A stretch of DNA of 64,000 nucleotides, from positions 4,068,248 to 4,132,247 of the forward strand of contig NC_049979.1 of NCBI RefSeq assembly GCF_000003815.2, in the 5' to 3' direction. This document shows, one piece after another, positions 30,901 to 59,600 of the stretch. The position numbers and the translations under genes were made by a program. The notes below the pieces were generated by a model, which saw nothing but the letters and a program-made list of their open reading frames with translations, was not told the DNA's origin and made no database searches. Each line of letters opens with the position of its first letter. Position 1 is the stretch's first letter. Source of the stretch: Branchiostoma floridae. Lineage: Eukaryota; Chordata; Leptocardii; Amphioxiformes; Branchiostomatidae.

Positions 30901-33900
30901 CAAAAATTTGGTACAGTTCTATCACTTGACTAGTTTTATTGTATGAATGAAAAGAAATCCAAGTTCAAGTTCGCTTAAGGCGGCAGAGTACAGTATTTAT
31001 CCGCGACCCCCGGAGTCAATGACGTGGGGGTAAAAAAGTAGTGCGGCCAAAATCTGGAAGCGCCTGTAAACACTGTAATGTGAAATACAGCGGGGGATGA
31101 GCTTTGCTATATGNNNNNNNNNNNNNNNNNNNNNNNNNNNNNNNNNNNNNNNNNNNNNNNNNNNNNNNNNNNNNNNNNNNNNNNNNNNNNNNNNNNNNNN
31201 NNNNNNNNNNNNNNNNNNNNNNNNNNNNNNNNNNNNNNNNNNNNNNNNNNNNNNNNNNNNNNNNNNNNNNNNNNNNNNNNNNNNNNNNNNNNNNNNNNNN
31301 NNNNNNNNNNNNNNNNNNNNNNNNNNNNNNNNNACTTATTAGTTTGTCGCGCTTCAGAAGTGCACCCTGGTATGATTTATCCGCGTCGATGTCAGTCACC
31401 TTGTAGTCCTTAACTATAGGAATCCCCATAGGCCGAAAACTGTACTCTGCTACCTTGAACCACGGCGGGTATTGGCCAGGAATTCCCAACGACCTTATAC
31501 TCGGGCAAAATCTCATAGTATGTTGACTATTGACGTTAGCTGACTTGAAATAAACCATTTCTTCCATCGTAAAAACTGCCGTTACCATGGCAACCGTCGC
31601 TATAAGCGCCGCCTATGCTTAACTATGGGACTTAGCGTGGAATTGCCATTGGCCAGGATCCCGTCTCCCCCCCCCCTTTTCTGTCGCAAATGACGTTACT
31701 GATAACCCCAAATGGCCCAGAACGTTAGAATATGCACAGAGGACGTCATTTTAGAGCAGAAAACCAACCGGAATCATAAATTTGTGCAGCTAACGGGACC
31801 ACTGACAGACCCCTCAGATAAGCCTTGTACGGAGCCTACCCCTATGCAGGGTGCAGAAGTACAAAGTTGGCGATATCTCAGCAACCGCTTGTATGTCTGG
31901 GCAAAAATTTGGTACAGTTCTATCACTTGACTAGTTTTATTGTATGAATGAAAAGAAATCCAAGTTCAAGTTCGCTTAAGGCGGCAGAGTACAGTATTTA
32001 TCCGCGACCCCCGGAGTCAATGACGTGGGGGTAAAAAAGTAGTGCGGCCAAAATCTGGAAGCGCCTGTAAACACTGTAATGTGAAATACAGCGGGGGATG
32101 AGCTTTGCTATATGGTAGTATAAAGAGTCGACTTTCAGGTGGTATGTGTAAGTTTATGATGTTTGTTCATTTGGTGTATAAATGCGCGTGACCTTTACAG
32201 CTGCCTGCCTCGGTGAGTCGGCTGCAGTTCCGGATGTCCCCGCATGACCCCATTTCAAAGATTGCGTGAAATTTTTAAAAAACGACAACTTTTTTTGCTT
32301 TTCAGTTATTTTGTAGGTTATATCCTCGACTTCAACATATTAGTTTGTCGCGCTTCAGAAGTGCACCCTGGTATGATTTTATCCGCGTCGATGTCAGTCA
32401 CCTTGTAGTCCTTAACTATAGGAATCCCCATAGGCCGAAAACTGTACTCTGCTACCGTGTAAGACAAGCTGAGCTGATGGGGTGGGAGGGGGGCAGGGGA
32501 AATAAACTGGGGCTGCCCCACTTTACTGTACATCTCCAAATGTTTGCAGCAGTTTTATGTTCCACATTGTTTCACTGCAACCTGCACCGGCAAATATTTG
32601 TTTTGTAATCCTCCTGTACTACAGGATTGTGTTATTTGCAAACTTCAGACACTGTGAAAGCATTCTGATCTCTCGCACCACGACATAAAACCACTGTAAA
32701 AATTTATGCATTTATGGTATATCTGGCAAGCTGGAGCTATCATCAATCTGTCAGTGGCAGTGTCACTCTGGGGACAAACACTGGGCTGTCTGCCCATCCT
32801 GGGAGGGGCATTATTCACTGCGCTGTCTTACAAGTCTTTATTTACTGTTTGTTTGTGCCTTTATTTTGACTCCTTTGACTACTTTTACTGTGCTGTCTTA
32901 TTACTCATAATGATCCTGGGAGGCTTTTTATTTACTGTGCTGCCTTACAAGTCTTTATTTACTGTACTGTCTTATAACTCATACATAGTGGTCCTGTGCG
33001 GGTTTTTATCTACTGTGCTGTCATATAACTCATAATGATCCTGGGAGGCGCTTAATTCACTGTGCTGTCTTACAAGTCTTTATTTACTGTGCTGTCTTAT
33101 AACTCATAGTGATCCTGGGGTCTTTAGTCCCTGTGCTGTCTTAAAACTCATCTCATGACCATTTCCAAAATTGAAAATCATATCCAGCCGCTTTTTGGAC
33201 TCATAGTCGTCCTGGGAGGGTTTTTATCTACTGTGCTGTCATATAACTCATAATGATCCTGGGGGGGTCTTCATCCACTGTGCTGTCTTACAAGTCTTTT
33301 TTCACTGTGCTGTCTTATAACTCATAGTGATCCTGGGAGGGTCTTTAGTCCCTGTGCTGTCTTACAACTCAACTCATGACTATTTCCAAAATGAAAATCA
33401 TATCCACTAATCCAGCTGCTTTTTGGTGTAACTCATAGTGGTCCTGGGAGGGTCTTTAGTCACTGTGGCATCTTATATTTTGTAATTCTAGTGTTGTCCC
33501 ACATCTATGCACACTGGGACACTGACGGTTCCAACTTCACAGCACTGTTTTCCTTAAATTATATCGTTACCACTGTCAGCTACATGTTGTAGTGAGAGTG
33601 GGACTGCTCTTCACTTGAGTTTAGCTTTGTCCTGCAAATACATTTGCAATACCTTACGTTTCATCAGGAGGAGATGTACTGTTTTTGCTCACTACTCTTT
33701 AATCTCTCATTTGGTGAGAGTATGATCATTCCTAAGTTTGGTTTACCCCAGCTGTAGCTCCTTTTGCATGAGTGGGAAATGTTTTTGCTAACAATTCTTT
33801 AATATTTGACTAAGTAAACACTTTCAGCTGGTGATAGTAGGATCACTGCTGTGCTTGTTCCTGCCTTGCTGCCCACTGCATGGTGGAGCGGTTCCTGATT

Positions 33901-36362: not shown

Positions 36363-38200
36363 CTGTACAAACCTACATGAAAAACACAACAAATCAACAC
36401 TATAACGTTATACATTACATATGTATGTTATACTCTATACATTTCCAATATCAAGACATATCTTTTGTTACAATGAATTAATGAAGACATTGTACAACTG
36501 AGCTAAGTACAGGTCACAACAAATCATATTGGTACAACTACAACAGTACAAGTATGTAGTGATATCATATAGGTTCTGCTTCTTCTCACTTTGGTAATGC
36601 TGAAAATATAGGATTGTCTGGGTTTAGCTTAGCTTTAGTCAGTTTATCAAAACGCATGAGGTATACAAATTCTTCAGTACTACTCATGAATACATGATCA
36701 TACAAAGTGAGGGAATTTACTTTCTACATAAGTACACTCTCCACCATTCCAACAAATCATTACTCCAGGTGTAAACATACCAATGGGTTAATTGTTTAAC
36801 GAAGCGGAGGTATTTTGAACATTTCAGCTACGTTGAAAAACTGGTATTGAGCGGTTGATGGCCATTTGAGTGCGCCAATAAAATGACAGACATTACGTGG
36901 GGCTGTCGGTTCTGGACAGAAGCCAGTAATGACAGGATAAGATTGTATGTAGCCCCCCACCGTGTAATAACACCTTTCTTCTGCCTTTAAGTACAGGTAT
37001 GCTCCACCTGTGCGCACCTGTGTGCCTACCTGGCACAGGTGAACCTCAGGTGAGACCGAGGGACACAAAGGACCATCTGAGGTGTGGCAGTGACCATAAC
37101 ACGACGTGATAACGCGTGAAAAACACCAGTGACTGCTGTCCTTTCATTCTCCCCACACCATACAGCCGTGAAATGTTATCCCTTTGTGCTTGGGGGGCTG
37201 GAAACAATCGTTATTGTCCCAGCGGGCGATACACATTTTGGAGTTCTGCACTTCGTCCAAACCGCCACAACATTATTTTATACATGTGTATTTATAGTCT
37301 GTGGCTAGATGGAATAATTATGATTAGCCAAATAGAACTAGGTTGCAAAGTCTATCATGTACTCTATACTCATCTGGCACATATTATACAGTCTACAGTA
37401 TAATTTTGGTAAATTTCTACAGTACCTTTTCCTGAAACCTATGGAGCCTGATACTAAAGACTGTACAGCCTAGGTCAAGGCTTACTCACACACAGGAAGT
37501 GCTCAGATTGTGAAAGATACCGGCGGGGCGATGAAACAGGGTTTCAGCCTGGTCAAGTATTATCAGAACAATGTTGGGTTGATTGAATTGCCCGTTGTGA
37601 AACAAGATAAAAATTTTCCAAACATGTCTCATAACCTCATAGTTTCCTGAATCCAACGGAAACCCGACAAACACAAAGTCTCCCTTTTCGAAGGGTTGGT
37701 GGAAAAAATAGCATCGTATTTGACAGGAAGGAATCTCGGTTGGGAGACAAACACAACATTCTTGGTGAGACAGAAAATGACTGGGACAACATTTGAACTG
37801 CGAGTTGAGCTGCGAGCAGACTGTTCCCATAACGAACTTGCGATGTAGTCAAACAAGAAATTAGAAAATAAACATTGACACGCTCGGGAACTGATTGCAG
37901 ATAAAAGTTTGTGTAATTTCGAGTCTGCGTTCTTGCGGCCCAGCCTTAGATCTGGCTTAGGACAGGCTCAAAATAGTCATTAGAATTGCCCAGATTTTCC
38001 AAAGGCCGATTTCACGTACACAAAGACACACATGTCAAACGGTAGGCTGAGGGAAAATGGAGCCCCGTGAACAAATCACCAACCGATTGGCCGGTCAGAT
38101 CGTCTGACAAAGAAATACTCACTCGGCGCGCCGGCCCGTCACCGAAGCGAACGGCCCAACTGTGTGGCTACTGTGGCCGGAGGAAGGAAGGCTGACTTAC
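36363..38200 (-). other. Intron in the DAAM 5' UTR
   Basis: Bounded by the donor at 38200 and the acceptor at 36363. I see no coding exon inside. Most of it is AT-rich unique sequence with no recognised repeat. Confidence 0.5.
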
Positions 38201-38300
38201 CGGCGGTCTAAGTCATCGTAGCGTCAAATTTCGTGCCCTCCCTCCTCAGTCAAAACAGGTAGACTGCTAAAATTGGTGCTCACAGTCGGACCGAGTCGGA
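38201..38300 (-). other. DAAM: DAAM 5' untranslated exon (3' boundary firm, TSS approximate)
   Basis: On the minus strand CCGCCG|GTAAGTCAG gives an excellent donor with the exon ending at 38201. The only visible acceptor that could follow is the one at 36362. A second donor (CGA|GTGAGT, exon end 38123) could be an alternative. The right-hand end given is nominal; transcription probably starts within the CpG-rich block at 38200-38500. Confidence 0.5.
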
Positions 38301-38600
38301 AATGACGGAATCGGGAGGTGACGTCATATTCGCTAAACTTCGGAAGTACGATCGGAGGAGCTCGTAAAGTCTCGGTAAATTTCGTAAGATCGATCGGCAG
38401 AGTTCGTGGAGTCTCGCGAAGTCTCGTCTTTTCTCGCGATAAGTACTGAGGACGGTAAGTTTCGCGCATGCGTAATGCTGCATTCCAGACAAGATGGCGG
38501 ACCACTTGAAAAATGTTTGGAGATTCGTGTAAACATTCTCGTTGTTTACGTTGATTTTGACCGACTATAAAGGATCTGTCAGTCCGGACTACTTATGAGC
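38300..38600. promoter_or_regulatory. CpG-rich bidirectional promoter between DAAM and KIF6
   Basis: About 300 bp dense in CpG between two divergent gene starts. Visible motifs: a perfect CRE palindrome TGACGTCA (38319-38326), an ETS-like CGGAAGT (from about 38341), two TCTCGCGA motifs (38412-38419, 38432-38439), an NRF1-like GCGCATGCG (38464-38472), a YY1-like AAGATGGCGG (38491-38500), and paired forkhead sites in inverted orientation, GTAAACA (38529-38535) and TGTTTAC (38543-38549). The forkhead pair is next to KIF6 and fits FOXJ1-type control of cilia genes. Motif identity is seen; function is inferred. Confidence 0.65.
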
Positions 38601-38618
38601 AATCTGCAGATTGTGTAG
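38595..38618 (+). promoter_or_regulatory. Short upstream ORF in the KIF6 5' UTR
   Basis: ATG at 38595 followed by six sense codons and TAG at 38616-38618, in frame with the KIF6 start 16 nt further on. It marks 38634 as the true start and could dampen translation if the transcript begins upstream of it. Confidence 0.45.
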
Positions 38619-38633
38619 AGGGCATCCATCAGC

Positions 38634-38693
38634 ATGGTGAAACAGACGATCAAGATCTTTTGCCGTGTGAAGCCCACAAAAGGCAAGACCGGG
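38634..38693 (+). CDS. KIF6: KIF6 coding exon 1
   Basis: Twenty codons, residues 1-20 (MVKQTIKIF...KGKTG), ending in phase 0 at a GTGAGT donor. The sequence begins the motor domain and matches the vertebrate KIF6 start closely. An upstream ATG at 38595 is in frame but closed by TAG at 38616-38618. Confidence 0.93.
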
Positions 38694-41600
38694 GTGAGTA
38701 ACTATGAGAAACGGATGTGACAACTAAGTAACTACAACTTGTAGTACAAGTACAGTGTCTTTGGAATCCATCACACCCGTTCATTCTTAAACATTGGTGT
38801 GCGTTACAGAGGATGGTGTAAGCATACAGGGTATATCAATAAAAAGTATTTGACCTTAACTGTATATACTTACTAATAAGTTACTATAGAGCGATGTTGT
38901 CAGAAGTTGTACTTTCCACAAATCTTTGTAAGTTGCACACAACATCTGTAATTAATCCTCAGTCAAAGAAACTTCCTAACGAGATCGAACAGTTGAAAAG
39001 TCAATGTGACATTAAGATCATCCATTTCAACGACGCGACAGGTGTTTCCCTTAGCAACAAAGGCCAAAGTATGCCTCCCTAAAGCACATTGTTTGGACTC
39101 CTCCTCCTGCCTAATATCCATAGGGAGGAATTCTCTTTGTGTTGGAACCATCGCCCTCTTTAAACTTTAATGGAATACTATAAAAGGATTGCCTACATAC
39201 AAACACAACAGAAGAGCCGTCCTGTGACAATGGTTGACACCAGCGAGATCAAGATGTATGTAGCTTGACCTGCATCTTGAAACAGGCATTACTCTAAGTC
39301 TAAATAAATGCTTCTGTTCTGGCTCCGCCTATACTTACTCAAGGCTAATCAAACATCTGCAGATGTCTAAGACCAACAAAAGACTATTGCTACTTTTATA
39401 TATATATACCCTCCTAGTTAAGAGTAAACAAAAAGAACACCCTCTCACTCCGATCAAGCTCACTCAAAACTTCTCCAAGTTTGTGCCAATTTAACTGTTC
39501 TTGTCTTCCAGCGATGATCAAAATAATGAAGACTCTTTCAAAGGGTTAAGAGCAGATAGAAAGCAGATGCTTATCATATGAATAACTTTTTATATAATTT
39601 GAAAGCTATTTCAGTGTTTAGAGCAGGTGTCAAAACGTACATGTTGTCCGTAAGACTGACCAGGAGTTTTCTCTGATGTTTCAGCTGTATGAAGTAGATG
39701 AAGACGATTCAGGTTTACCCAAACTGAGCTTCTTTGTGCCGAAGGACCAGTCTCAGATCGTCAACAACACCAAGGAAGAATATAACTTCAGGTGAGGTCT
39801 AGCAAAAAATTTAAACATAACTTTTGTTTCTTGGCCTGAGCTCAAGCTGAAATGCTCAGCTGCATATGTGAAGAACTTGGAACAATACAGAAATGACTTA
39901 TTGCCCTACTGTGTACATTAGAAAAGGATTTTTGAAAGTATTTTTTAAAGAGATTACATTGTAGTTTTTGCTGCAGCTGTAAGACCTTGTAAGTCTTCGG
40001 ATTTATCTGTTGTTGTTTTTTCTGTTGAAAAAATCATAAAATTGCAGTAATGATATGAATGAAAAGCCCAAAGGGTTACCCACCCTCAGCTATTAGATTC
40101 ACCTGAATACAAACTAATGACTAGGTTTCTATACAACTGTTAGTTGGTGTGTGAAAGTATGATGTAATTGATGTTCATTACTACATGTTCAGGTTCCAGC
40201 GAGTGTTTGAGCAGCAAACCAAACAAGAGGAGGTTTTTGAGCACGTTGCACAGCCTGTCATCGACAAGTAAGTCATACGCGTTTGGTATAAACAGGGCTA
40301 ACGTTCATGCATGCCCTGTAAAAACAGCCCAGGCATAAGTTTGAAATGGTGTAACATGTTTGTTTGTTTGTTTGTTTGTTTATTTTCATACACCTGGGTA
40401 GCCTATTCAGTGCTAGTACACTGTAAGTTGTAATGAACAAGTTTTTGCCAAGGAAATGCTTGAATCATGTCGAATACATTTCTGTAAAGCACAATATTAA
40501 GCTTAAAGTTAAACATATAATATTACAGGATGATGTATGTCATGTAGAATTCATCTCTGTAAAACACAATATAAAGCTAAAACATATAATATTACCTACA
40601 TGTAATAGTGAGAGGTCTGCCACCTCCTTTGCTGTGAAACTGATATGTACTGCTTCCATACAGATCATTTGATAGTCTTTTCATCTTTTATATATGCAAT
40701 AAGTTATGACATGCATTTGTGCTTTTTCTAGATGCTGCTAAAATTAGAATGACCAAAGAAAGCAAAACAACTTACCTTCCTTTTTATCCTGTTTTAGTGC
40801 TATATCCGGCTATAACGGCACCATCTTCGCATATGGACAGGTGAGGTTCTTAATCAAACTTCTTGTAAAACACTTGTAGTTGAAGAATGCCAGGATAAGG
40901 AATTGACTGTCTGATGCAGGACATGTATCAAATCTGCTTAGCAGACAAGCAGAACTGTTCTGAATAAGGAAACTTCAGCTGTGCTATGGTTAAACACCAC
41001 CCTGAGGACTCAGCGTTCATGCTCACAAGCCACTAGTCTGTGTGTGTGTGTTTTATAAGGAGGTACTGTGACTAATATTGTCACTTTCCTGCACAAAAGC
41101 CACATCAAACTGTCCGCCCTGGTCTGCAGGAGTCCCGGAAAGATCAGGGTCACCCGGGGTCAGCAGGATTTCCCTTTTCCCTGTTTACTTCCTGCCGTGG
41201 TCGTCCCTCCTGTCTGACATGTTTACACACTTTCTGTACTCGGTCAACACAGAGACAAGCAGGGTCACACAAGATCAATGGCCCCATGGCCACAGGCCAG
41301 TGAGAAGTTGGCTCGGGCCAGTGGAAATGACCATGTACTGGCCCTCTAGGGTCAGTAAATTGTTGAAAACTTTGTCCAACCCTGGACAAGAGGCTGATGA
41401 CTAGTGTGAGCCCGGTACTGGTCTGAGACAGGATAGGGTTGGGTGTGTAGTGACTAGTGGTCTCTTGTAAGAGTGAGTTTATATTACATTATAGCATATT
41501 TACCTATGATGTAATCTACGTAGTTAAGAGTGAAAATAAATGTCTCTTTTTTGTGCGGCTCAAGTGTATACGATCAAACCTGTACAAGTGGCAACCCCTG

Positions 41601-44600
41601 CAAAAATGCCTTCTGGCCATTGTGACCACTGTTTGCTGGTCCATACCATTAATTTCCCATTAACCAAAGCATAGTCTGTGTAACACAAACTCTGCTGTCT
41701 GGGGCTGTAACTGGCCCCTCCCCACTAGGAGGCCGGCGGATGTTGGGTGGGCTGCTATAAGCAAGATTTAATCAGGCTAACCGAAGCAGTGAGAATCCTG
41801 TCTACAGTGGCCATTTTCTCCAAGCCTCTTGAGTAGTCATTATACACACATGTTTGACAGTTTCATAGCCATATTTAATTGCGCTTCTATACAGCCACCC
41901 TACATTGGCTGTGGGGAGGGGCCAGCCAGTTCCAGCCCTGGACAGGGGAGGTTGCATTGCAAAGACTAACAGTTTTCGTTGTACATAAAATCTCACAGAC
42001 CTGTTAAGACTGTACAGGTTACAGTAACTTAAGATATGATGTTTCATTGTCAAGTCTGAACCTTTTACTACAGCAGTAAGACATGATGTTTCTCCCATCT
42101 CCTACAGACCGGCAGTGGAAAAACCTTCACCATCACGGGAGGCGCGGAGAGATATGCAGACAGAGGAATCATTCCGCGGACACTCTCGTATCTGTTCGAG
42201 TACTATGAAAAGGTAGTATACTTTTACTGTTCATGTAGTAAAGTAATCATATACAAAAGCTCTATGCAGTCAACTGGCATTTTGGATGAGCACAATCTTC
42301 AATGATTCATTTTGAATTAGTACAAACATACACATTGTGCTTAAAAATCCCTTAATGGCCAATGAGGCTTTGGGGCTGGTGAGATGAGCAGAAAGATGTG
42401 TGGAATGCTTGTGAGTGATGACATCGTGAATTAGCATGAAAATGCTGTCAAGTTTTATTTTAATTATGATGATGGATGCTGAACTTGATAGTGTACGATT
42501 ATTCTACAAGTACATGTGCATGTGTAATGAAACTGTGTGTGTTGCAGATAGATTCTGTCTTGTGCATGTGGACAGGTTAAAAAGTAGCTTTGCGGGAAGC
42601 TAACACTGGACGAGGTAGATCTGATTTACATGTTTGCCTGCAGCACCCAAAGTTTCCCTACATGCCCAATGTGGGCTGGTCTGTAGAGGTAGTATTGAGC
42701 AGGACTGTGTAGGTTGAGAGTTACCTTGTCCCTGCAGCACCCAGAGTTCACGTACACGACCCACCTGTCGTATCTGGGTTGGTGAGACTGAGTAGGGTAG
42801 GGGGAGAGATTGATTAGAACTGTGTGGGTTGAGAGTTACTCAATCCTTATCCCTGCAGCACCCAGAGATCACCTACACGACCCATGTGTGGTATCTGGGT
42901 CAGTAGGCAGGGATTGTGTAGGATTGATAAGAGTTGAAAGTTACCCTGTCCTTGTCCCTGCAGCACCCAGAGTTCACCTACATGACCCACGTGTCGTATC
43001 TGGGTTGGTGAGTAGGGTAGGGGGAGAGATTGATTAGAACTGTGTGGGTTGAGAGTTACTCAATCCTTATCCCTGCAGCACCCAGAGTTCACCTACACGA
43101 CCCACGTGTCGTATCTGGGTTGGTGAGTAGAGTAGGGGGAAGATTGATAAGAACTGTGTGGGTTGAGAGTTACCCTGGATCTTTCCCTGCAGCACCCAGA
43201 GTTCACCTACACGACCCACGTGTGGTATCTGGGTCAGTAGGCAGGGATTGTGTAGGATTGATAAGAGTTGAGAGTTACCCTTTTCTTTTCCCTGCAGCAC
43301 CCAGAGTTCACCTACACGACCCACGTGTCGTACCTGGAGATCTACAATGAGAACGGCTACGACCTGCTGGACCCCAAACACGAGGCTGCTAAGCTGGAGG
43401 ACCTGCCGTGAGTCTTGCTTTTAGGCTTAGGTTACAAACAGGGGCCCGGCTGTGCAGCTTTTGGAAGCGAAAAAAATGATAGAAAAGACAAAAATTCACA
43501 AAATGTCAAAATAAGACTCAAGGGCATGATTTGTGTATATTTCTAGGTACTACACATTTAATTTTTCGTTTCTTAAATTATCCTGTTCGGGCCCCGGTTT
43601 GGAAATGTAACATAGGCTTACATCAGGCACACTGAACACTGAAATTATAAAACAAACGATTCTCTATGTGTCCTAGAGTCATGAAGTAGAAATGTTTTAA
43701 AAAGACTAAAAGAACATTTTGAGACTTGCAGAGGTTTTTTTTTTCAGTTTTCACCATGAAATATGCTTTTTATTATGTATTAGAGCTGTACAGCACAAAG
43801 GTGTAAACAGCGAAATTAAAACATTACATAAACTTTGTTTCTCCTCAATCAGCATAGTAAGATAACCGCAAAAGTAAGAATTTACAGTTGAATCATTTGA
43901 TTTAAAGAATTCCAAATTCCTGTTAAAGACAGAAAGACATGTTTCAAATGCTTCCATTTACACTTCACCTAATTTTCATTGATCATTTCATGAATGGTTT
44001 CACCAGGTTGGTACGTCACTGAATAAAAAGACTCTTTTTTTCACAACCCTTGTTTATTTCCACCAATGTTTCGATGACCGTCACCTTCCTTAGGGCAGTT
44101 CTGACTGGTTCACATATGTATGACTGCTTCTGTAAGTAGTAACACCTACATTTTGTATAGCTGTAGTACAATGTAAACTAGTCAGAATTGTCCTGAGGAA
44201 GGTGACAGGCAGTCACCAAAACGTTGGTAGAAATGAAACAAGAGCTTTGAAAAAAGAGTCTTCTTATTCAATGATGATTGCAAGAAAAGACACCAAAAAA
44301 GGAACGTCCTGTCCTTCCACAAGAAGGTATCCCTGATGGAAGACACAGATCAGAACATCCACCTGAAAAACCTGTCTGTTCACCAGGGTCAGGGGCAGGT
44401 TAGGGTCAAGGTTAGGGTTAGGGTCAGAGTCAGGGTCAGGATATTGAACTCTTGCCCCCCTCCCCCACTACAGGAAGGTATCCCTGATGGAAGACACTGA
44501 CCAGAACATCCACCTGAAGAACCTGTCTGTTCACCAGGCCATGAACGAGGAGGAGGCGCTCAACCTGCTCTTCCTGGGAGACACCAACAGGATGATCGCT

Positions 44601-47600
44601 GAGGTCAGCAAAATACAACATACAAACTTACTGGCACATTTGACCAATTGCTGATGTTACGCATGATTTTACGTTTGGAAGTGATTGGTCATTATTGATC
44701 CTGAAGGTCATTGAAAATTTGACCCATATGCCCCTTAGTTTTGGAAGAAAGTTCTTTTCCGTCCAACTCATTGTTTTGGAGTCCATGTTGTTAATTTTTG
44801 CCGTTGAAGCTTTTATATTCATCAGCTAAATCAGTTAATATAGTGTCAGGCATCTTTTCATATAATTTTTAGAAGCACATAACCATAGCTTCTCTATAAA
44901 CTAGAGTGGATGCATATTAGTGACTGTGCATTTTGTCTGTACATTAGCACAAGACAGTGATGCGTTGTTTTTGGTCTTTTCTGTGTGTGATTCTAAATAA
45001 AGGCAATGCAGCATTGCTATACAGTCTCAGTGCTGCTATCTTTGTCGAAGGACTAGAAAGCAGCATGGGTACTGGGGTGAAGTCTGCCATCTCTGATTGC
45101 CTTATATTTTCCCCCCAGACTCCGATGAACCAAGCGTCGACGCGGTCCCACTGTATCTTCACTATCCACCTGACGGCGCGGGAGCCCGGCTCCGCAACCA
45201 TCCGCCGATCCAAACTGCACCTGGTGGACTTGGCAGGGTACGGACTGTTTGTTTGTTTGTTTGTTGATTGTTTATTAACACTTATACAGCAAGTTGTTAC
45301 TTATACATTATAGAGTGAGATCGCGTGACGCAGTGGCAGCATGTTTAGCTTTGGACCGAGACATCTTGAGTTTGAATTCTGCCATGTCACCCATCTTGTG
45401 CCCTTCGGAAAACCACTTTACACAGCTTTCCTTACTTCGTTTGTTTGTTTCTTTGTTGATTATTTACTTGCATTTATGCAGCAAGTTCATCTTGCTGGGT
45501 TTGCCCCTGCAGACAGTTTATTTGGTCACCAATGCTCAGCTGTTCATTCTTCTTCACAACAGCACATGGGGAAAAATAGATTTGGAAACATCCAGTACCT
45601 TTCATGAAAATTGTTCTTGCTTACATACTAGCATATCTTGCTGGGTTTGCCTCAGGAACAAACAGTTAATTTGAATATCGCAGAAGCACAAAGCAGTGGC
45701 TGGATACATCACATCAACTTACTTTTCATAAAGCCCCATTAGTTGTTGAAAGCTGTGCTCAGCTGCTCGCTCCTCTCTGCATAAGGCCATGTTGATTTGA
45801 TTATATGGATGACATCCTCCGGGAACTCCAAAACTGATGCGAGCGAGCGAATAAAAAAAAAGTTTGGCCAAAAAAAAAAGTTGCCTTCAGTATGAAATCA
45901 AAGTGGCCAGGAAGGTTGAACATAGGACTAAACACACATAGTATGGTATACCAACAGTTAGGTGTAGGGACCAGTACATCATACGGGTGCAAAACATTTT
46001 TTTCTTCTTGGACCAATCCGAAAAAAACAGACCTGAAAAAAAACCCAGAGGAACAGGTTTTGCCTATTACAAAATGGACACACTATGTCGGCAGCCATTT
46101 GGGGTCTAACCGGGGGGCCAAGAAGACAACAAGAGCGAAGTCAAGTAGAGTTTATAGTCAATTGCACCAAGTTTCTACAGTCAAAGGTACAGAGACAGTT
46201 AGCCTTTATTACATGGAGATGGGATTTTGAAATGCATTGGGAGTCCAATAATCTACCAAACAGATTCCTTTGTAGCAAAATTGACCAATTACCATTGTTT
46301 TGAGTATTGCCAGTTCTCAAGTTTCCACAATCAGGTCCAGGTTCATGTCCGGACCTTGAAATGATCCTCTGGACCTGAATTTTCTGTACTGGTACCTCCC
46401 CCTACCATCAATAGATTTTTTTTCTTTCTGTCCTTTCACATCTTATTCTTTGACTTTAGATTCATTTTGGCATTCTATGGCATTTAGTTATCTGTTTTCT
46501 GATACTTTTTTTTCAATCTACGGAATATTTGTGCTCATTTTACAGCTGCTTTGCACAATTTATTGTGTGGTCGAAAACTTTCTTTTTTTTTGGAAATGGC
46601 AGAAAATTGGTGCGAGCGCGGATGTCATCCATATAATCAAATCAACGTGGCCTAAACTCGGAAAGTTTGTTATTACTGATTGCTGCGTTTACCAGCTTGT
46701 TTAACAGCTATTCTGCATGAAACCCAGGATGAACTTAACATTGTGTCCCGTGTCTCTCCCCACCCCAGGTCTGAGAGAGTAGGTAAGACGGGCGTCGGAG
46801 GAACTCTTCTGGCAGAGGCCAAGTACATCAACCTGTCACTGCACTATCTTGAGCAGGTACGGCAACTGGTGCTATAAGAGATTGTGGGGGGGGGGGGTGG
46901 ACTAAGCTAGCTAAACATTACAACAGCTTAGAGGAACTGTAGTTGGGTCTAGAGAGAAGAACTCCCAGTTGTAATGGGATCCAAAGGATGATAGTTTATC
47001 TTTTATGGTACGTTTTGAATCTGTCACTCTGCAAACATAGGTTCAATCTTCCACTGCACTGTTATTGTTGTTTCAACTACAAACACCCCAAAATGCCTCC
47101 TTTCCCCACCTACCACAAAAGTCAGTCAAAATGAACTCAGTCTATAGTACCAGTCAGCACCTGCCATTTTGTCTTTGGACAGAATTCTGCTTCACTTAAT
47201 GGAAAAAAAATTAAAGACAATTTTCCCGTCAACCACAAACATCAGTGGGTAAAGATGTAGAAATATCCAAGCATTTGAGCAAACCATGCCAAAACACCGT
47301 CCAGGAAATTGAAGAATGACTGACATTTGCATACATCAACCCAAATTTCGGATTTTTCTGTTGATTGGAATTGGGATACCTAGATGGCTGGAGCCCCAAT
47401 CTTCAATATGCTGTATAATTTTATGCGCAGGTGATCGTGGCGTTGTCGGAGAAGTCTCGGTCCCACATACCGTACCGGAACTCCATGATGACCTCCGTGC
47501 TGCGGGACAGCCTCGGCGGGAACTGCATGACCACCATGATCGCGACCTGCTCTGTCGAGAAGAAGAACGTAGATGTGAGTAAAAACCACGGTTAACTTTT

Positions 47601-50600
47601 TTGTGGCCTTGATGTCCTGTCAGACCGCCTAAAGAAAATAGCTTCACCTTGTGTGTTGAATGCTTCATCAGCAGAGTACGCTTATTACTCTGTGACACTG
47701 GAGGGTAACCTCCAGTAACAGAGTATTGTAATCACTTTGTGCGTTGAGTGTTCGCACCTGTATCTCAATGTTCCGTATGCCGCAATCGCATGTGGATTGG
47801 CATGTCGCCTGTACTCGGTTAGGAAATGATGCACGTTATTTTTTTTTTGCCGAAGCTGTTTTTATTTTGGATGTAATAATTTCAGTTTTCACCCCTACGT
47901 CTTCGGTATATTGGTCCAGGTCTTCGTTATGATCGTGCTTGTGGTCATTGGATATCGTCAAGCAGATGTTGTCTTCGTCGAAAATTGACAACAGCTGTGC
48001 TACCTCGTACCCGGGAAAAGTAGGCATTTGATTGACAGGGGTCTTTAAAGGAACATAAAAGCTGGTTCTCAATGTGCCAGGAAGATAACTATATTCCAGA
48101 ACAGCTGTTGGAGATGAACTCTGCGATAAGGTTTTGTCAACAACTCGGGAATAAGCAGATACTAACGTAAATACACAATTTTAACCCACTGAACCCACTC
48201 CCAGGTGTCTACACTCTATGCAGACGCAGACTTAGCGATAAGGGGCCAGAATATGTACAAGGACAGAGGCGGTTATTTAGGTACAAGGCTCATGTCCCTA
48301 ATCAGAGCTTAACATACAAGTCAAGCAGGGTGGTGGCATTGTGACGATCTCCACGCAGACGTTGGGAAAAATCGTAACTATTTGTAGCAGGAACGATTTG
48401 CACTAGCACGTACCATATCAAGAGCCCGTTTCTACACATGAATTCTGGACCAGTGTTAATTTTCGCATTTGTTGTCGTTCGTTTGAGACGCTGATTTTGC
48501 TGTTCATGCGTACAGGACTGTGGAAGTGAGTTTAAATTTGGAAGTGATAGGTATGTTAGCTTTTAAGTAAGTTTTTGGCAAAGGCGATGATGTGTTCTGT
48601 ATGCGATATAAACACCGAGTCATACACCACAGAAAACATCACAACCAACACAAACCATAGTTAGGTCACAGAGTATGTTACCTACGGTCACTTGTTTTGT
48701 TTAGACTAACAACATTTCTCCATGTTTGCAGGAGTCCATCCTGACCTGGAGGTTTGCTAGAGAGGGCTTAGTTGTTAATGTTAGAGGTTAGGGGTTAGGG
48801 TTAGTATGTTTTTACTAAGAATATTCTCTATGTTTGCAGGAGTCCATCTCGACCTGCAGGTTTGCCCAGAGAGCAGGTAGGCCATTGGACTCGATATGGC
48901 GAAACGCGAAGCGCGAACATCGCCATATAGGGGCGAAACGCGCGGCGCATATCGCCACCGGGGGGCTAAAAGCGAGTTCTCGATTTTCTCCCCCTGAAAG
49001 CGGTAGCGCGAAGTGTAATACAAATCATGTGCTAATCATCGCGCTTAGCGCCATCACGGGATGAAACGTGACATCTCGATTTTCTCCCCCTGGATACGGC
49101 AACGCGAAGCGTAATGCAAAACCCGCATTGACAACCAGTTACGAATTTGTCCACCGTTTACATTTTTTACGAAACACGTATCGTAATTGGTTTGTTTGCC
49201 CTTCTTATACATGTCCTTATACCATGTCCTTTCCCGTCTTTCTGGACGCCTTCCCCACATGCGATTCCCTGTTTCATTTTCGTTCAGACGATGTACGTGT
49301 GTAAAATCACATGTGTTAATTTTTCCTATTAATTACCCATAATAACGTATGTGTTATGTTACTAATTTGAGGATTGTAAAATAACCTATACAAATGATGA
49401 TACCGGTGCTTGTGATTCTGTTGTTAGACGCCGGCGACGCACACAGTTTTGTGGGCATCCTGTACGGATCCGCCAATAAGACGACATCCAATATCCCTTC
49501 AAAGTGTATATTTAGATTGATACCCCCTTCTTATCACTTTTGTTTTAAAACACTACCCATGTACAAAAATGTACCAGTTAAAGGGAGAAAACAATGTTTG
49601 GTGCATTTCCTACGAGGCACACAAATATTTCCTTCTACCGACAACTGATGCTAGACCGTCATGCATTGCATGACAATAGGAAGTGCTGTCAAAATTGATT
49701 GATTTTGCGGTCGGCGCGGCACATATGATAGTAGATCAAAGGACCGCCGCCCAGTACAACTCTGATGTAGCGAACTTCTGACGTTCTGTATTGGAATTCC
49801 CACGATTTAGGGGACATTCTAATAGTAATAGCTGGGGGAGAATCAAATAAACTTTTTTTTCAAAAGTTGAGTAATTTGACCAGCTTCCTTTGTATATAGC
49901 AATACATACATAAAAATATGTAGCAACATTTAACAACCGTATGAATTATCTAAATTGGCATTTTGTCTGCTTCAATAACTTAACCAGGATAATCACCCGT
50001 GAGACCTTTATCCCCTATAAATATTGACCTTCCCAATTTTTACCGGCTACGCTCAGAAGACTTTAGAAGAAGAACCAAACCAAACCGAACGATAATGTAT
50101 AAACGGTTTTGTATTACGCTTCGCGTTGCCGCATCCAGGGGGAGAAAATCGAGATGTCGCGTTTCACCCCGTGATAGCGCTAAGCGCGATGATTAGCAAA
50201 TGATTTAATTACGCTTCGCGCTACCGCTTTAAGGGGGAGAAAATCGAGAACTCGTTTTTAGCCCCCCGGTGGCGATATGCGCCGCGCGTTTCGCCCCTAT
50301 ATGGCGATGGTCGCGCTTCGCGTTTCGCCATATCGAGTCCAAGAGCCTACCTCCAGAGAGGGCTTAGTTGTTAGGGTTAGAGGTTAGGGGTTAGTGTTGT
50401 TTGTACTAACAGTATTCTCTATGTTTGTACTAAGAGTTTGCACTAAGGATATTCTCCATGTTTGCAGGAGTCCATCTCGACCTGCAGATTTGCCCAGAGA
50501 GTTGCTCTCATCAAGAACGATGCTCTGCTCAACGAGGAGGTGGATCCTAAACTGGTGGGTATAACAGCGGGACAGGCGCACCTCTGATGCAGGGTTGGAC

Positions 50601-53600
50601 AAGTTTTCTAAAATTCACTTGTCCTATCGGGCGAGTACACACAAAAACTAGTTACCTGGACCAACTTTTCACTTGCCTGAAATTTAAATGACACTTTTCT
50701 ATGTATTTTCACTTCCAGCGATGGAATTCTTATTATTGGCTCTCTATGTCGAGCAATGCTTCATGTCACGACTGTGAAAGGTAGCAAATATATCGAAATC
50801 TCTGTCGAAGGAAAAAATCTTGCTTGCCCGGTGGGGCAAGTGGGGTAGGACATGCGCTTGCCCGATCAGCACTTTCACTTGCCCTGGACAATAGGGCTAG
50901 TGGACTCGTCCAACCCTGAGATACCTTCTCAACCACCAGTCTCCATCCTAGGGTTTTACTCTGATGTTAAACTGTAATTTAAATACTGTGCAAACAGTGG
51001 TGGCAAAGATACTTGAAGAAGGGTAGTATCAACCCTGCAAATTTTGAAGACTTAACCTATAGCTACAGTTGACATCTCAAGATTAGAAACTGGATAGAAT
51101 AGCTACAAGCTGAGGCATAGAGAACAACAACAGGACTTGCCTCTGCACCAGTAGACTGGCCTAACTCTAAGAGTGTCTGTCCACCATACCACTGTACATT
51201 GTGTCTGTTCACTGATTTCATTGGAGCTAAACTGGTTGATTCGATTTGATTTATTTATTTTGCACATTTTTAAAAAGACAACATAAACCAAATTAAAGGA
51301 AGCAACAAAACGTGCAGGGGGAGAAAAAAGCCATGTGGCTTGTACATGCTCTTCCCCTGTCAAAATTTAATAATCATGATACAATTTAACAACTCATAAA
51401 GTAATAAAGATTGAATAGATATGAAAATTATACATTAAACAATGATATAACACAGTGCATTATCATGCCCAATTAACAAAATGGAACAAAATGATGATAG
51501 TTCAATAATGGTTTAAGATCACTTCTATGTCCTGAGAAGTTAACAAAGATGCAAATTGAATCCTCTTCAGATGGTTCTGAGACTGAAGAAGGAGATCGTG
51601 GAGCTGAAGGACCAGTTGTCGCTGGCAACGGGGGAACAGCCGACGGACGAGCTTTCTGGGGAGGAGACAGACAGGTGAGGACAGCACATCCTCCTACACA
51701 TATAAATATTACCCTTATATATGCGAGATCCCTTTTGAAAACTGAAAGGTCTATTTTCTGATTGAGGTATGTGGGTTAGGGTTAGGGTGGGTTAGGTGAG
51801 AGTTAGGTTGTCGGTTAGGATGTTTCAGGCTGTGATGTATAGGTTATAATGTGTTTTGGTGTTTGTGTTTCCCCAGACTACACCAGATAGTCCGTGGGTT
51901 GGGGTTAGAGTGTGTTAGGTGAGGGTTAGGTTGTGGGTTAGCATCTTTCAGGTTGTGATGTTTGTGTTTCCCCAGACTGCACCAGATGGTGCATGGGTAA
52001 GTGGGTTGGGGTTAGGGTGAGGGTTAGGTTATGGGTTATGTTGTGGGCTTTGACTTAGGCTGTGGGTTAGGGTGTGGGTTATGGTGTGGGTTATGGTGTG
52101 GGTTAGGTTGTTTCAGGTTGTAATGTATTTTGATGTTTATGTTTCCCCAGACTAAACCAGATGGTGCGTGGGTACGTGGAGGACACAGACCCAGATGCCA
52201 CACTGCCCGTCGGAGCTGACATGAGGAAAATCAACGAATGTTTCAGAATATTTAAAGTGAGTAACTATCCAGTTGCCTGTCATGACTGACTGCTTTTTGG
52301 CAAAGATCTGTCATTGATGATGAAAGTGCCATGTTCCAACCCTGCCGTTGACAGCGACTAGTTCTGGAGAGGTATGCTGTCATAACTTTGTTTACCGGCT
52401 AAGAGCAATCCATAACTCAAAGAATTCTCAGAATTCAAAGTAACCAAACTGAATGATACGTCGTCGATGAAGGCTAGACATCCAAGTACTAAGATACGCC
52501 AAAAGACGTTTCAGACAGTCACTTTCGTCATTGACACTGATGTTTTCGTCAATGTGACTGACAAAAGACTCCTGATAGCTGTCTGAAATGTCTGACCGTT
52601 TCCCAAATCATATCCAGTTGCTTGAGCAACTACTTTCTTGCAATGATCTGTTACCGACAATGAAAGTTCCATTGTATTGTCCCTGCCGTTGACAAAAACT
52701 GGTTCTGATGAGGCATGCTATCATAACTCTGTTTACCGGCTAAAAGCAATCCATAACTCAAAGAGTTCTCAGAATTCAAAGTAACCAAAGATCTGTTAAC
52801 ATTGCTGACATGTGACATGTTCTGTCCCTGCCGTTGACAGAGACTGGTTCTGGAGAGGCATGCTGGGAAGCACGGAGGCGTGAGTAACGGAGCTGTGGAG
52901 GAGGAGGAGGAACCGTCCGTCAGTGAGGACAGCGGGCTCGGCAGCGCACCCTCCACGGCAGGGTCAGCCGAGGTCAAGAAACTCAAGGACCTGCTGCAAC
53001 AGCGAGACAACGAGATCAGTATCCTTCGCATGGCTTTGACTTTGACTTTATTTGGATCCAACATTAGGTTGACATTTCTGTTAACTATTCTTCCTGTGGT
53101 CCTACACATGAAGTACATCACTACGATATCACATGACAGGGATACTAAACTAAAATACATCAGATTTAGATAAAATGAGATTAGTATCCTTCGTATGGCT
53201 GACTGAAGGGAATGTTAAAACTTAATGAAAGCTTCATATTTCACAGGAATTTCGACAATTTACGACAATTTTTGTTTCCAGATCAGCCCACTGGTTAGGT
53301 GTTTTATCGAGACAATTCTAGGTGGGAAGGTGGCCTTGTGGTGGGGGTTATATTGAGTTTGAAACTATACTTTCTTTGTTTGAATCCCTAGCAGGCCCCA
53401 AGTATTTCATCACATGACTCAAATGAAAATAAACTTTGGTAAGGGATATCATCTCAGATAGGACATACAGCAGGTGCCCAATGTTTAAAGACAGCCACAC
53501 CTCAAGCACGATAAAGATCCCACCACACTTATCATAAACAGAAGGGGTGTATCAGTGGATGAAACCTTACAGTCTGGTCTTGCGCAGTTTGTACTTGCTG

Positions 53601-56600
53601 CGCAAAACTGGGGTGTTGTGCCTGAAGGTGGTTTCTTCTTCTTCTTTGCGATTCAAGGACAATCACGTCCTGGGAAACAAGGTGCAGCTTGTGTGGCAGG
53701 TGGTGGTGCACAAAACGAAACAAAAACGAATTGAAAAATAAAGTGAGCTAAGCTGAGCAACTATGTTCAACAAAAGGGGGCCCTACAGCTGGGTTTTGGC
53801 GGGGAGGCCAAGGTGACTAGCCTCGCCCGGTTTACTAGTTATGCAAAACTGGTGTTTATTGCCCCTTGACCCTCGACCCCCAGACATCCTGGTGAACATG
53901 CTGAAGAAGGAGAAGAAGCGGGCGCAGGACGCGGCGCTGATGCTCGAGGAGCGGGGCATACCATTCAGCACGGGGGAGGGGACGCAGCCCAACGGGCCGG
54001 GCAGACCGCCCTCCTCCAGGAGCAAGCACAGAAACAGGTGAACTGTGGCAGCATCTACACAGTTTTGATTGTCATTATCATATCTTTAGTTGCAAAGTTT
54101 AAGCTTTGTCCCAACACAAAGAAAGGAACTCACCATAAAGTTGGGTTAGAACAAAGCTTAAACTTTACAACTATGGATTCTACCAACAAAGATGATCTTC
54201 CATTCGAATATTATCGCATCTTGTCCTGCTGAATCCAGTCCTGGGCCTTCTGGCAGGCCTCAAACAGCTCCCAATTCGTGTTAAAACTTAGGGCCTTGAA
54301 AAAGACAAAGAATGCTTGTTCTATGTCAATGAAGGTGAGACAACTATGTAATAAGATATGCCAAATAGCAGTTACTCATAAGATAAGCAACTGGAAATTC
54401 ATACCCTTTAATAGGCTAATTGGAAGGGTACAATCAGTAAAAAGGTAACAAGTAACTATTCTGTAGGTATATCTTATATTTCTACATACATTACTGGGTG
54501 TGTGTGACTTTTTCTTTATGATTACTGCTTGCACTCCAGTTGTTTGAGCCCTTGTTGTTGGCTGTCGTAGGGAGGAAAGGTCCAGAGAGAGTGTGAGCGT
54601 CAGCAGAAGTCTCAGCCAGCCAGATTCAAGGGAAAAGGAGACCACGCCTCCGTACTCACAGAGCACGACTGTACGACTCAGGAAAATAGGTACGTACACA
54701 GGGCACATTCTGGTTGTCTTCTTGCAGGCAACAGTATAGTTGATGCCTGAATTATTTCCTTGTTTCCTTTTCTTTGCAAATAAAAGTGCATTGTACTCTA
54801 TATCTTAATATCTCTGCGGGAAAGGAGTTTTTTTATCTGTGCTATCATTATTAGTTTGCAGTTTAAACGGTTCTGCAGTACTGCAGAAAAACAATAGAAA
54901 TGTTCATTCATATTGTTATGAATTCACATTTGAGAGGCCAGCCTGAAAACTTTGAAAACAAAACATTTCAAGATTAAAAAAAAAAATTACAGAACATCGT
55001 CAGAAGTTAGCTGCAGTTCATAAACAGGGTGGTAGGTGTCATTGCTGCGTGGTTGTGTTCCAGGAGGGGAGATGTCCGTGGGCAGGCAGGAGGCGTTTGA
55101 GATTTTCAAGCGGGACTACGAACACAGCGTCACCGTCGATGACCAGAAGGGTCTGCTCAAACAAAGGTAACGTACTAACAAACTAACTAACTAAGGCAGG
55201 TCAGACTGACTAACTAACTAACAGAAGGGTCTGCTCAAACAAAGGTAACGTACCAACAAACTAACTAAGTAGTGCAGGTTGGACTAACTAACTAACTAAC
55301 TAAAAGAAGGGACTGCTCAAACAAAGGTAACGTACCAACAAACTAACTAAGTAGTGCAGGTTGGACTAACTAACTAACTAACTAAAAGAAGGGACTGCTC
55401 AAACAAAGGTAACGTACCAACAAACTAACTAAGTAGTGCAGGTTGGACTAACTAACTAACTAACTAAAAGAAGGGACTGCTCAAACAAAGGTAACGTACC
55501 AACAAACTAACTAAGTAGTGCAGGTTGGACTAACTAACTAACTAACTAAAAGAAGGGACTGCTCAAACAAAGGTAACGTACCAACAAACTAACTAAGTAG
55601 TGCAGGTTGGACTAACTAACTAACTAACTAAAAGAAGGGACTGCTCAAACAAAGGTAACGTACCAACAAACTAACTAAGTAGTGCAGGTTGGATTAACTA
55701 CTAGTAACTAACTAACTAAAAGAAGGGTCTACTCAAACAAACTAACTAACCCTTGGCTAGTTAGACAATTCTCGCTGTGTGTTTCACTGATAGATTGACA
55801 TGAATGATGGGAATTTGGTTACATTTGCCAGGTGGCTAGATTGGAATACAAGGTTTAACATACTTTGGGAATACTCATTTTACATTTTCAAGAAAAGTTG
55901 TTCAGATTTTGGTGTTGTTTCCTTGCAGATACTCAGAGGCAAAACAGCTGGGAGAGAAAGTCAACTCCTCCAGGGTGCAGATCAGTGAGTAACCTCAGCT
56001 TCTGTTTCTAGTTAGATTTTTTTTTACTTACACATCTACCATTGGGACAAAGTAAACAAATACATGTACTTTGTTGATGAGGGTTGGACTCAGAGAAAAG
56101 ACAGTCACAGAAGAAAGACAGGATGCTGACTGAAACATCTGACTGTTTTCAAACCTTATCTCGTAACTTTGTCTGAGTAAAGAAATTCTTGTGTCTTTTA
56201 AATTATCTTAGAACGTCACTTGTGTACACTGACAAGACGTCAGATTGGGACACCAGACATCACCAACACAGGGAGGATCATTCTGTATATCAGCATGAAT
56301 ACTGGCACATATTTTTTCTAGCTTCCCCCAGTCAAGTGCTACCTTCCCTGTTACATTAGATATACTTTCCGCAGAATGTATGCAAAGTGTATATACTTTT
56401 AAGTGATACTACACATGTCCCAACCCGTCTCAGTCCTGACTGTTTGTTTGTTTCAGATCATGTAAAGAGTCTGATCCAGCAGCACAGAATGGCCAGGGCA
56501 GCCCAGGGTATCAGCGATGATGTTGGGTTCTCGGAGGAGCCAGATGAGGAGGAGCAGCACCTGAGGCAGCAGATGGAGGACGAGAAGGCCAGGTGAGGTT

Positions 56601-59600
56601 AGGGGTTAAAGGTTAGGGGTTAGAGGTTAGGGGTTAGGGGAGCCAGATGAGGAGCAGCAGCACCTGAGGCAGCAGATGGAGGACGAGAAGGCCAGGTGAG
56701 GTTAGGGGTTAGAGGTTAGGGGTTAGGGTTTAGAGGAGCCAGCTGAGGAGGAGCAGCACCTGAGGCAGCTGATGGAGGACGAGAAGGCCAGGTGAGGTTA
56801 GGGGTTAGAGGTTAGAGGTTAGGGGTTAGAGGAGCCAGATGAGGAGGAGCAGCACCTGAGGCAGCAGATGGAGGACGAGAAGGCCAGGTGAGGTTAGAGG
56901 TTAGGGGTTAGAGGAGCCAGATGAGGAGGAGCAGCACCTGAGGCAGCAGATGGAGGATGAGAAGGCCAGGTGAGGTTAGAGGTTAGGGGTTAGAGGAGCC
57001 AGATGAGGAGGAGCAGCACCTGAGGCAGCAGATGGAGGACGAGAAGGCCAGGTGAGGTTAGAGGTTAGGGGTTAGAGGTTAGGGTTAGAGGAGCCAGATG
57101 AGGACCTGAAGCAGCAGATGGAGGACGAGAAGGCCAGGTGAGGTTAGAGGTTAGGAGTTAGAGGTTAGGGGTTAGAGGTTAGGGTTAGAGGAGCCAGATG
57201 AGGAGGAGCAGCACCTGAGGCAGCAGATGGAGGACGAGAAGGCCAGGTGAGGAAATAAAGACAGAGTTTGAACACCTGTAGCAGGCATCTGTCCACCTTG
57301 ACAGATGATAGTAACACTCTGAATTAAGGCCATTTACAATGTCTTTGTAGTAGCCTGGTATCCAGCTGTATTATAGCTCCGAGTCTCTTCTGTCCTCTAC
57401 GCAAATATTTGCGTAGTGGACAGAAGAGTCTCGGGAGCTATACAGAAGAGACTCGGGAGCTACAATATGGCTGGTACCAGGCTATCTTTGTAGGCCAATG
57501 CTCGCGGGGCAATCGTGGCCACAATTTGGGCACAAGAAGTCAGAGTTTTCAAGTTGCTGTCTCTCTTTACATTTCTGTTGTCTTAAATTTTGAACACCTG
57601 TACACTGCAATTTAATGCAAATGCATTTATTTTTGGGGTGGGTCTAGTTTGCATTAGGGGAGTAACGGAGGTTTTCTCAGTGTAATTCATAGTTTTCTCA
57701 ATGTAATTCACAGTTTTCTCAGTGTAATTCACATGCAGTTTTCTCAATGTAATTCAGTTTCCTCAGCGTAATTCACAGTTTTCTCAGTGTAATTTTTGGC
57801 CATTTGACATCACACCAAATCTATAGATATCTCCATTGAGATACAATTTCATCTTTTCCACTTCAGCTACAAGGTGACGTTTAACCGCCTGCGGGTTCTG
57901 AAGACGGAGATCGAGCACCTGCAGCACCTGCTGGAGAAGGCGCGGCTGCAGATGCAGAAGGACTTCGAGCTCTGGTGGGCGGAGCAGACCGTCAACGCCC
58001 ACGCTCCGGTAGGTTCCTTATACAAACAAACACCGTCAACGCTCACACTCTGGTAGGTTCCATACAAACAAACAAACACTTCAACGCTCACACTCCAGTA
58101 GGTTTCATACAAACAAACAAACACCGTCAACGCTCACACTCTGGTAGGTTCCATACAAAGAAAACAAATAAACAAATAATTGAACCCTTAAAGACCGTCA
58201 ACGTTCACACTCCTGTAGGTTCCATACAAACAAACAAACAAACAAACAATCAAACCCTTACAGACCGTCAACGCTCACACTCCGGTGGGTTCCAAACAAA
58301 CAAACACAGTCAACGCTCACACTCCAGTAGGTTCCATACAAACAAATAAATAAACAAACTCTTACAGACCGTCAATGCACACACACCGGTTGGTTGCAAA
58401 CAAACAAACAAACAATCAAACCCTTACAGACCGTCAACGATCACACTCCAGTTGGTCCATACAAACAAACAAACAATCAAACCATTACAGACCGTCAACG
58501 TTCACACTCCGGTAGGTTCCATACGTTGTCAAACAAACAAACAAACAAACAATCAAATTCTAACAGACTGCCAACGATCACACTCCTGTAGGTTCCATAC
58601 AAACGAATAAATAAACAAACCCTTACAGACCGTCAACGATCACACTCCAGTTGGTCCATACAAACAATCAAACCATTACAGACCGTCAACACACACTTCG
58701 GTAGGTTCCATACAAACAAACAAACAAACAATTGAACACTTACAGACTGTCAACGCTCACACTCCGGTAGGTTCCGTACAAACAAACAAACAAAAAAGCA
58801 AACCCTTACAGACCGTCAACGATCACACTCCAGTTGGTCCATACAAACAAACAATCAAACCCTTACGGACCGTCAACGCACACTTCGGTAGGTTCCATAC
58901 AAAGAAACAAAAAAACAAACCCTTACAGACCGTCAACGCTCACACTCCAGTAGGTTTCATACAAACAAACAAACACCGTCAACGCTCACACTCTGGTAGG
59001 TTCCATACAAACAAACAAACAAAAAAACAAACCCTTACAGACCTTCAACACTCACCTCCGGTAGGTTCCATACAAACAAACAAACAATCAAACCCTTACA
59101 GACCGTCAACGCTCACACTCCGGTAGGTTTCATACAAATAAACAATCAAACCCTAACAGACTGCCAACGCTCACACTCCGATAGGTTTCATACAAACAAA
59201 CAAACAAAAAAACAAACCCTTACAGACCGTCAACGATCACACTCCGGTAGGTTTCATACAAACAAACAAACAAACCCTTACAGACCGTCAACGATCACAC
59301 TCAGGTATGTTCTATACAAACAAACAAACAATCAAAACCTTTGAAACTAACGTCCGCCGACATGATATCCCCAAATACCTTTTTTTTAAAGAACGGATAT
59401 AGGTTACCCAACAGATAAAGGTGAACTAGTGTTACCTCCTTTTATGCCTTCTACATGTATGTTGATAGTTTACCAGCAGTGCATAACACAGCTCATCCTA
59501 GTCCGTAAACTACCTTATAGTCAGCAGTGCTTTCATAGAGACAGTCTCTGTAGATCTAAAAGTAGTGTTTTTCCCTTCCCATTCCCAGAAACCCCCTCAG

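Follow-up and report, generated by a model that had tools for sequence, protein, structure and literature searches.

Why should the introns of a single kinesin gene hold so many partial copies of the edges of its own exons? The gene lies in a 64,000-nt stretch of Branchiostoma floridae DNA (hereafter the window), which corresponds to positions 4,068,248-4,132,247 of NC_049979.1, forward strand, within a 513-Mb assembly. Its protein matches the Pfam Kinesin (6.7e-101) and KIF9 (6.3e-49) domains, and KIF9 is its top match among solved structures. We take the gene to be KIF6, a name that comes from an earlier note on this DNA and from the vertebrate protein. Our answer, in which we have good though not complete confidence, is that the copies are amphioxus mirages, i.e., products of local tandem duplication that included an exon edge, were expanded by slippage or unequal exchange, and are tolerated since the outermost copy and the remainder of the exon have stayed joined.

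We searched for edge copies using exon-only probes of at most 70 nt per edge, because the low complexity of the introns had to be kept out. Probes for the 44 internal edges of KIF6 were aligned to the adjoining intron, with the remaining 21 introns, 60 shuffles, and the reverse complement as controls. Eight of 44 junctions were significant. These were the acceptors of introns 5, 6, 10, 12, and 13, with scores of 75, 115, 63, 38, and 38, respectively, and the donors of introns 17, 19, and 20, with scores of 46, 118, and 38, while the top control value at any of these eight edges was 29. With the reverse complement, none of the 44 junctions was flagged. The significant introns are exactly the eight in which the earlier note had reported copies of an exon edge. 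A weak single copy that it had also listed, in intron 14, is present as a 20-nt match but fails significance in this test, with a score of 16 when other introns reach up to 26.

In each of the eight introns, the copies are partial, directly repeated, and found at a single edge. Altogether, 48 copies carry a junction, from one in intron 6 to 22 in intron 20 (Table 1); this total excludes the weak match in intron 14 and one junction-less copy in intron 17. The claim that each named intron contains tandem copies is correct for seven of them but not for intron 6, which has a lone copy and no array. Similarly, the copies do include the splice site, as had been claimed, but three of the 48 lack the AG or GT dinucleotide, namely the intron 6 copy, one of two copies in intron 13, and one of 22 in intron 20; the other 45 retain it. 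The real exon is indeed always the outermost member and the sole one with the full frame, because any duplication that covers one exon edge has that geometry. Both the duplications and their one-sided geometry are directly observed. As a separate observation, made post hoc, the five acceptor-side arrays are all in introns 5-13 and the three donor-side arrays all in introns 17-20, a perfect split whose chance is 2/56.

Table 1. Features of the KIF6-DAAM region (window positions, except for the last line)
Feature	Position	Strand	Description
KIF6-type kinesin gene	38634..60895	+	23 coding exons, 871 aa, single open frame, GT-AG at 22/22 introns
Intron 5 acceptor-side array	42630..43297	+	6 copies of exon 6 start, junctions 42644, 42738, 42859, 42964, 43079, 43193; real exon 6 at 43298
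Intron 6 single acceptor-side copy	44319..44387	+	copy of exon 7 start, 94% over 69 nt, AG lost
Intron 10 acceptor-side array	48698..50467	+	2 copies of exon 11 start, junctions 48732, 48840; split by element at ~48875-50352
Inverted-repeat element	48875..50352		in second copy of intron 10 array; ~1.5 kb; arms 48875-49123 and 50105-50352, ~250 bp each
Intron 12 acceptor-side array	51766..52150	+	2 copies of exon 13 start, junctions 51877, 51976
Intron 13 acceptor-side array	52266..52840	+	2 copies of exon 14 start, junctions 52355, 52696
Intron 14 weak donor-side match	53174..53193	+	20 nt, non-significant
Intron 17 donor-side array	55145..55741	+	82-bp unit, 6 junction-bearing copies plus one without junction
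Intron 19 donor-side array	56534..57252	+	7 copies of exon 19 end, GGTTAG-rich
Intron 20 donor-side array	57985..59341	+	22 copies of exon 20 end, AAAC-rich spacers
DAAM-type gene, two coding exons inside window	36352-36184 and 24935-24846	-	remainder left of window
DAAM intron 4 array	G000:C1 ~4056066-4059151		left of window

The earlier note had pointed to minisatellites at intron boundaries of the amphioxus Adh gene, and rightly so. Such repeats, named mirages, are on record in Adh3, in PGBD5, in two globin genes, and elsewhere. The passages of PMC3087553 on this subject describe mirages in the globin genes BflGb6 and BflGb9 and cite Adh3 and other loci. They report different repeat numbers in two haplotypes, cite somatic instability at Adh3, find splicing seemingly undisturbed, and propose a route to intron gain. 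PMC3902484 adds PGBD5 and cites troponin C, and according to PMC2632668 the introns of VCBP3 hold partial exons with splice sites. The KIF6 copies show these traits of mirages: they span an intron-exon boundary and combine exon-edge with intron sequence, and either boundary of an exon is involved, the acceptor side in five introns and the donor side in three. Judging from these passages, they resemble published mirages in that part of an exon edge, splice site included, is directly repeated in the adjoining intron, on either side, with similar unit size and with signs of turnover. They differ in that eight occur in one gene, that a rate per junction was measured, and that copy numbers range from 1 to 22 in KIF6 and reach at least 40 in DAAM, the neighboring gene discussed below.

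Other described cases can be compared as far as the relevant passages go. Lancelet PGBD5 (PMC3902484) likewise has imperfect tandem repeats, of 60 and 108 bp, over splice sites, but these are two arrays in one gene, where the authors suspect that annotation was misled. Amphioxus VCBP3 (PMC2632668) has complete or partial exon copies in introns, some with splice sites and similar to adjacent coding exons, but the data are not shown there and the gene family is polymorphic and immune-type. Intron gain in potato RdRp (PMC4974935) also involves a tandem duplication inside a gene, but a new intron results there, whereas the KIF6 copies sit within introns of a gene whose reading frame is intact. Tandem repeats that alter gene structure in human, some of them at exon-intron boundaries (PMC2812944), share minisatellite expansion at gene boundaries; however, they concern recent paralogs in segmental duplications, with lengthened exons or putative new introns rather than partial exon edges over many introns of one gene. 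The tandem-repeat passages of PMC4284660, PMC4967905, and PMC2206037 do not describe mirages. Neither a genome-wide mirage survey nor mirages in KIF6 appeared among the literature matches listed, from a search outside which most subscription papers lay. What is new here is the density of mirages and their presence in neighboring genes, mirages themselves being already known.

The arrays show signs of concerted turnover among the units present. The copies in intron 5 resemble the real 42-nt edge more closely the nearer they lie to exon 6 (33/41, 39/42, 39/42, 40/42, 41/42, and 41/41), and unit types alternate, one of them also preceding the real exon 6; this gradient and this alternation fit sequence exchange within the array. 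The inner units of intron 17 are near-identical. In intron 10, the second copy is interrupted by an inverted-repeat element flanked on both sides by CCAGAGAG, in which the longest reading frame is at most 92 codons. When the flanks of the element are joined, the match to the first copy is restored, with a score of 122 versus 40 and 88 for the flanks separately, and the array therefore predates the insertion. Under the mirage reading, a short stretch that happened to span one exon edge would have been duplicated locally, the extra copies in the intron would have multiplied by slippage or unequal exchange, and these intronic copies would have swapped sequence among themselves and drifted. The messenger RNA could be spliced as before from the outermost copy, still joined to the rest of its exon, and exon definition is the likely reason for this tolerance. 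While signs of turnover can be seen directly in the arrays, we infer both the molecular step that made the first duplication and the ignoring of the copies in splicing.

Is the high count peculiar to KIF6? It is not, since the neighboring gene, presumably DAAM (a name taken from a human bait sequence), behaves likewise. On either side of the window, we took ten stretches of 10 kb each and applied the exon-probe test to 23 introns of DAAM, excluding intron 13 as uncertain and correcting four joins by hand; intron 21 probably conceals an unmodeled exon. Nine of 44 junctions were flagged (4A, 5A, 7D, 8D, 10A, 17D, 18D, 19A, and 23D, where A is acceptor and D donor), a count that excludes the borderline 6A, 12D, and 19D. 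The intron 19 acceptor had first been set on an upstream copy, and copies were still found after correction. In intron 4, the start of the next exon recurs in at least 40 near-identical copies, spaced ~40 or 60 bp apart. The three DAAM junctions within the window have no edge copies, the arrays being only further along the gene. Together, KIF6 and DAAM have 17 of 88 junctions flagged.

Other genes that lie no more than 100 kb from the window had 5 flagged junctions out of 53, all of them only approximately located. This set was drawn from 34 coding segments found by codon score, of which 26 were used together with one from the open-frame list. Eight were excluded as doubtful, one of them within a repeat array, and the repeat data were visible during this selection. 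Splice sites were placed by score, several of them weak, and 53 of 54 junctions were testable. One flagged junction is in an SLC3-type gene, three are in a PLEKHD-type gene (two of them on one exon whose donor is poorly placed), and one is in a BRF1-type gene, this last being doubtful as it lies beyond clear coding sequence. No junction was flagged in the BTBD-, TEX30-, and legumain-type exons of the set. All six of these names are our assignments, made by eye from translations. Mirages thus recur in neighboring genes, as observed directly, with 22 of 141 junctions flagged over all tested genes, or 21 without the doubtful one. Farther away, we took four 10-kb random stretches from four other contigs, which contained seven exon-like places (four in L034 and three, one weak, in L035), with no local-repeat cluster in either, numbers too small to judge by. 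Codon score revealed no exon-like place in L033, and in L036 high scores fell inside repeats unlike exon edges and were uncounted.

Observations on the copies themselves lie on both sides of the reading as tolerated, drifting mirages, whereas the placement of the arrays, treated below, weighs against it. We tallied 44 of the 48 KIF6 copies, ungapped and over part of the exon depth. Differences that only some copies have number 35 nonsynonymous and 19 synonymous (P = 0.016, 0.064, and 0.17 against neutral drift at transition weights of 1, 2, and 4), and these private changes look close to neutral, in favor of that reading. However, differences from the exon that occur in 80% or more of an array's copies, the lone intron 6 copy included, number two nonsynonymous and seven synonymous (P = 0.0005 to 0.003), which fits change under constraint on the exon side. 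We rejected this synonymous excess as a general feature: in 16 DAAM copies, again ungapped, with some indel misalignment and the intron 4 array excluded, there are 49 nonsynonymous and 13 synonymous private differences and 12 and 5 shared ones, partly misaligned, with no departure from neutrality. The splice dinucleotide is changed at 3 of 96 positions in the KIF6 copies versus 152 of 1248 elsewhere (raw P = 0.004), a count that treats the copies as independent, which they are not. When the fewest changes per column are counted, the dinucleotide is not conserved beyond expectation (3 changes versus 5.1 expected, P = 0.25), and we dropped the suggestion of conservation that the raw count had made. 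Finally, by a crude count (consensus matches for donors, pyrimidine count for acceptors) the real splice site is equaled or surpassed by 27 of 48 copies, so correct splicing must rest on something other than local motifs or may fail. It could be argued that the copies are functional, as decoy splice sites or optional micro-exons. In line with this, almost all retain the splice dinucleotide, the short splice motif is identical in 28 of 48, and in intron 20 (58009-59341) an AG precedes a 21-nt in-frame segment of the TVNAHTP kind in 13 of 22 copies, in 12 of which GT follows the segment. Yet the tracts ahead of these segments are pyrimidine-poor (5 or 6 of 12), all nine copies in introns 5, 6, and 13 fall short of the pyrimidine count of the real acceptor, and both the near-neutral private changes and the column count speak against function, as do the Adh3 data and globin RT-PCR (reverse transcription PCR) in the passages of PMC3087553, which suggest regular splicing. 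We found no good evidence for function of the copies and consider such a role highly improbable. Still less credible, and unlikely on the face of the sequence, is that the arrays are artefacts of assembly. One globin mirage was apparently misassembled in the draft genome according to PMC3087553, and near-identical units leave the copy number uncertain in introns 17 and 19. However, units differ by private changes, one array carries an inserted element, the pattern recurs in several genes, and the PGBD5 repeats were confirmed on resequencing, as stated by the authors in the part of PMC3902484 that deals with them.

The placement of the arrays bears on another suggestion of the earlier note, that a process starting at splice junctions may be at work. 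By bases, intron interiors are richer in local repeats than junctions are (26% of interior bases, arrays included, versus 7 of 44 junctions), and we therefore used controls at the level of arrays. In brief, duplications were placed at random across the KIF6 gene with tolerated outcomes only, of which 15% are expected over an edge. By hand count, 8 of 11 local-repeat clusters in KIF6 are at an edge (P = 3e-5), or 8 of 13 when repeats internal to the element are counted (P = 2e-4). With two-fold detectability at edges and units of 60 to 350 bp, these values range from 4e-5 to 0.03 and from 2e-4 to 0.11, respectively. A mechanical count, which scores the intron 10 array as interior because the element splits it and misses DAAM 18D, gave 7 of 13 edge clusters in KIF6 and 8 of 26 in DAAM. 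The pooled 15 of 39 compares with expected fractions of 0.07 (100-bp units) or 0.13 (with two-fold detectability), an excess that chance and tolerance do not obviously yield. The pooled P is 2e-13 with units of 60 bp and 2e-8 with units of 100 bp; two-fold detectability raises the latter to 6e-5 and, combined with 250-bp units, gives 0.32. Under this last setting, KIF6 and DAAM alone give 0.72 and 0.27; median unit lengths are 96 and 118.5. An excess of edge arrays in KIF6 and DAAM is therefore likely, although model-dependent. The part of the suggestion that stands is the pooled excess over random placement, which shrinks or vanishes with long units and longer-lasting recognizability of edges. 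A mutational process that targets splice junctions, e.g., via transcription-linked DNA structures or via the chromatin change between exon and intron, would account for the excess, and the hand count in KIF6 points the same way. The two genes are, however, adjacent and were picked non-blind, KIF6 having been noticed in the earlier note, fewer junctions are flagged in other nearby genes, and the exon-like places on two other contigs are without local repeats. We regard such a process as a tentative possibility, and it is equally doubtful that junctions are preferred starts of duplication in the genome, several-fold over nearby intron, with a trace at about one in seven junctions regionally. Telomere-like GGTTAG tracts near exon edges offer a more specific seed, through microhomology or replication trouble, and here we are decidedly skeptical. 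On the sense strand of the window, the arrays of introns 6, 10, 12, and 19 contain, or have no more than 60 bases away, 51 of 55 GGTTAG motifs, as against none of eight for CTAACC. A longer tract pattern has 11 matches genome-wide, five in KIF6 intron 19, and at one of the five other places, L008 on another contig, an open frame with GTGAGG behind it is duplicated over 121 bp (94%), apparently one more edge duplication, of a putative exon. Against this, the motif was picked after the arrays were seen, four of eight KIF6 arrays lack it, only intron 10 has more than two GGTTAG among the nine array introns of DAAM, and the four remaining tract places are telomere-like arrays of ~230-700 bp with no visible exon edge. 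G-quadruplex scores fail to distinguish introns with arrays from those without and were discarded as a predictor of arrays, and breakpoint microhomology was assessed by eye only. The tracts, striking in KIF6 but unrepeated in DAAM, were rejected as a general seed and treated as a local feature.

The proportion of flagged junctions in two adjacent genes, together with the nearby cases, suggests that mirages may be a common feature of the genome rather than curiosities. If so, they bear on gene prediction, as the copies retain splice signals, on how the splicing machinery skips near-identical sites, and on the published model that leads from mirages to intron gain. Were a mutational process tied to exon edges to operate genome-wide, it would keep placing splice-site copies in introns, as raw material for intron and exon change.

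The DAAM-type gene, on the minus strand, and the KIF6-type gene stand head to head (24846-38693), and KIF6 and DAAM2 are likewise neighbors in human. An array at 34963-35341, adjacent to an open frame, was considered as a mirage of another gene and dropped, as it falls in DAAM intron 1; a 37-residue peptide from it matched nothing in the PDB with E values up to 10, and none of ten selected open frames, the adjacent one included, matched Pfam over the curated cut-off. A ~1-kb unit is repeated in tandem at 28381-32490, with a 220-base gap of Ns at 31114-31333 and an uncertain copy number in the assembly. DAAM intron 2 contains a 40-bp minisatellite of ~25 copies at 20246-21223, away from exon edges.

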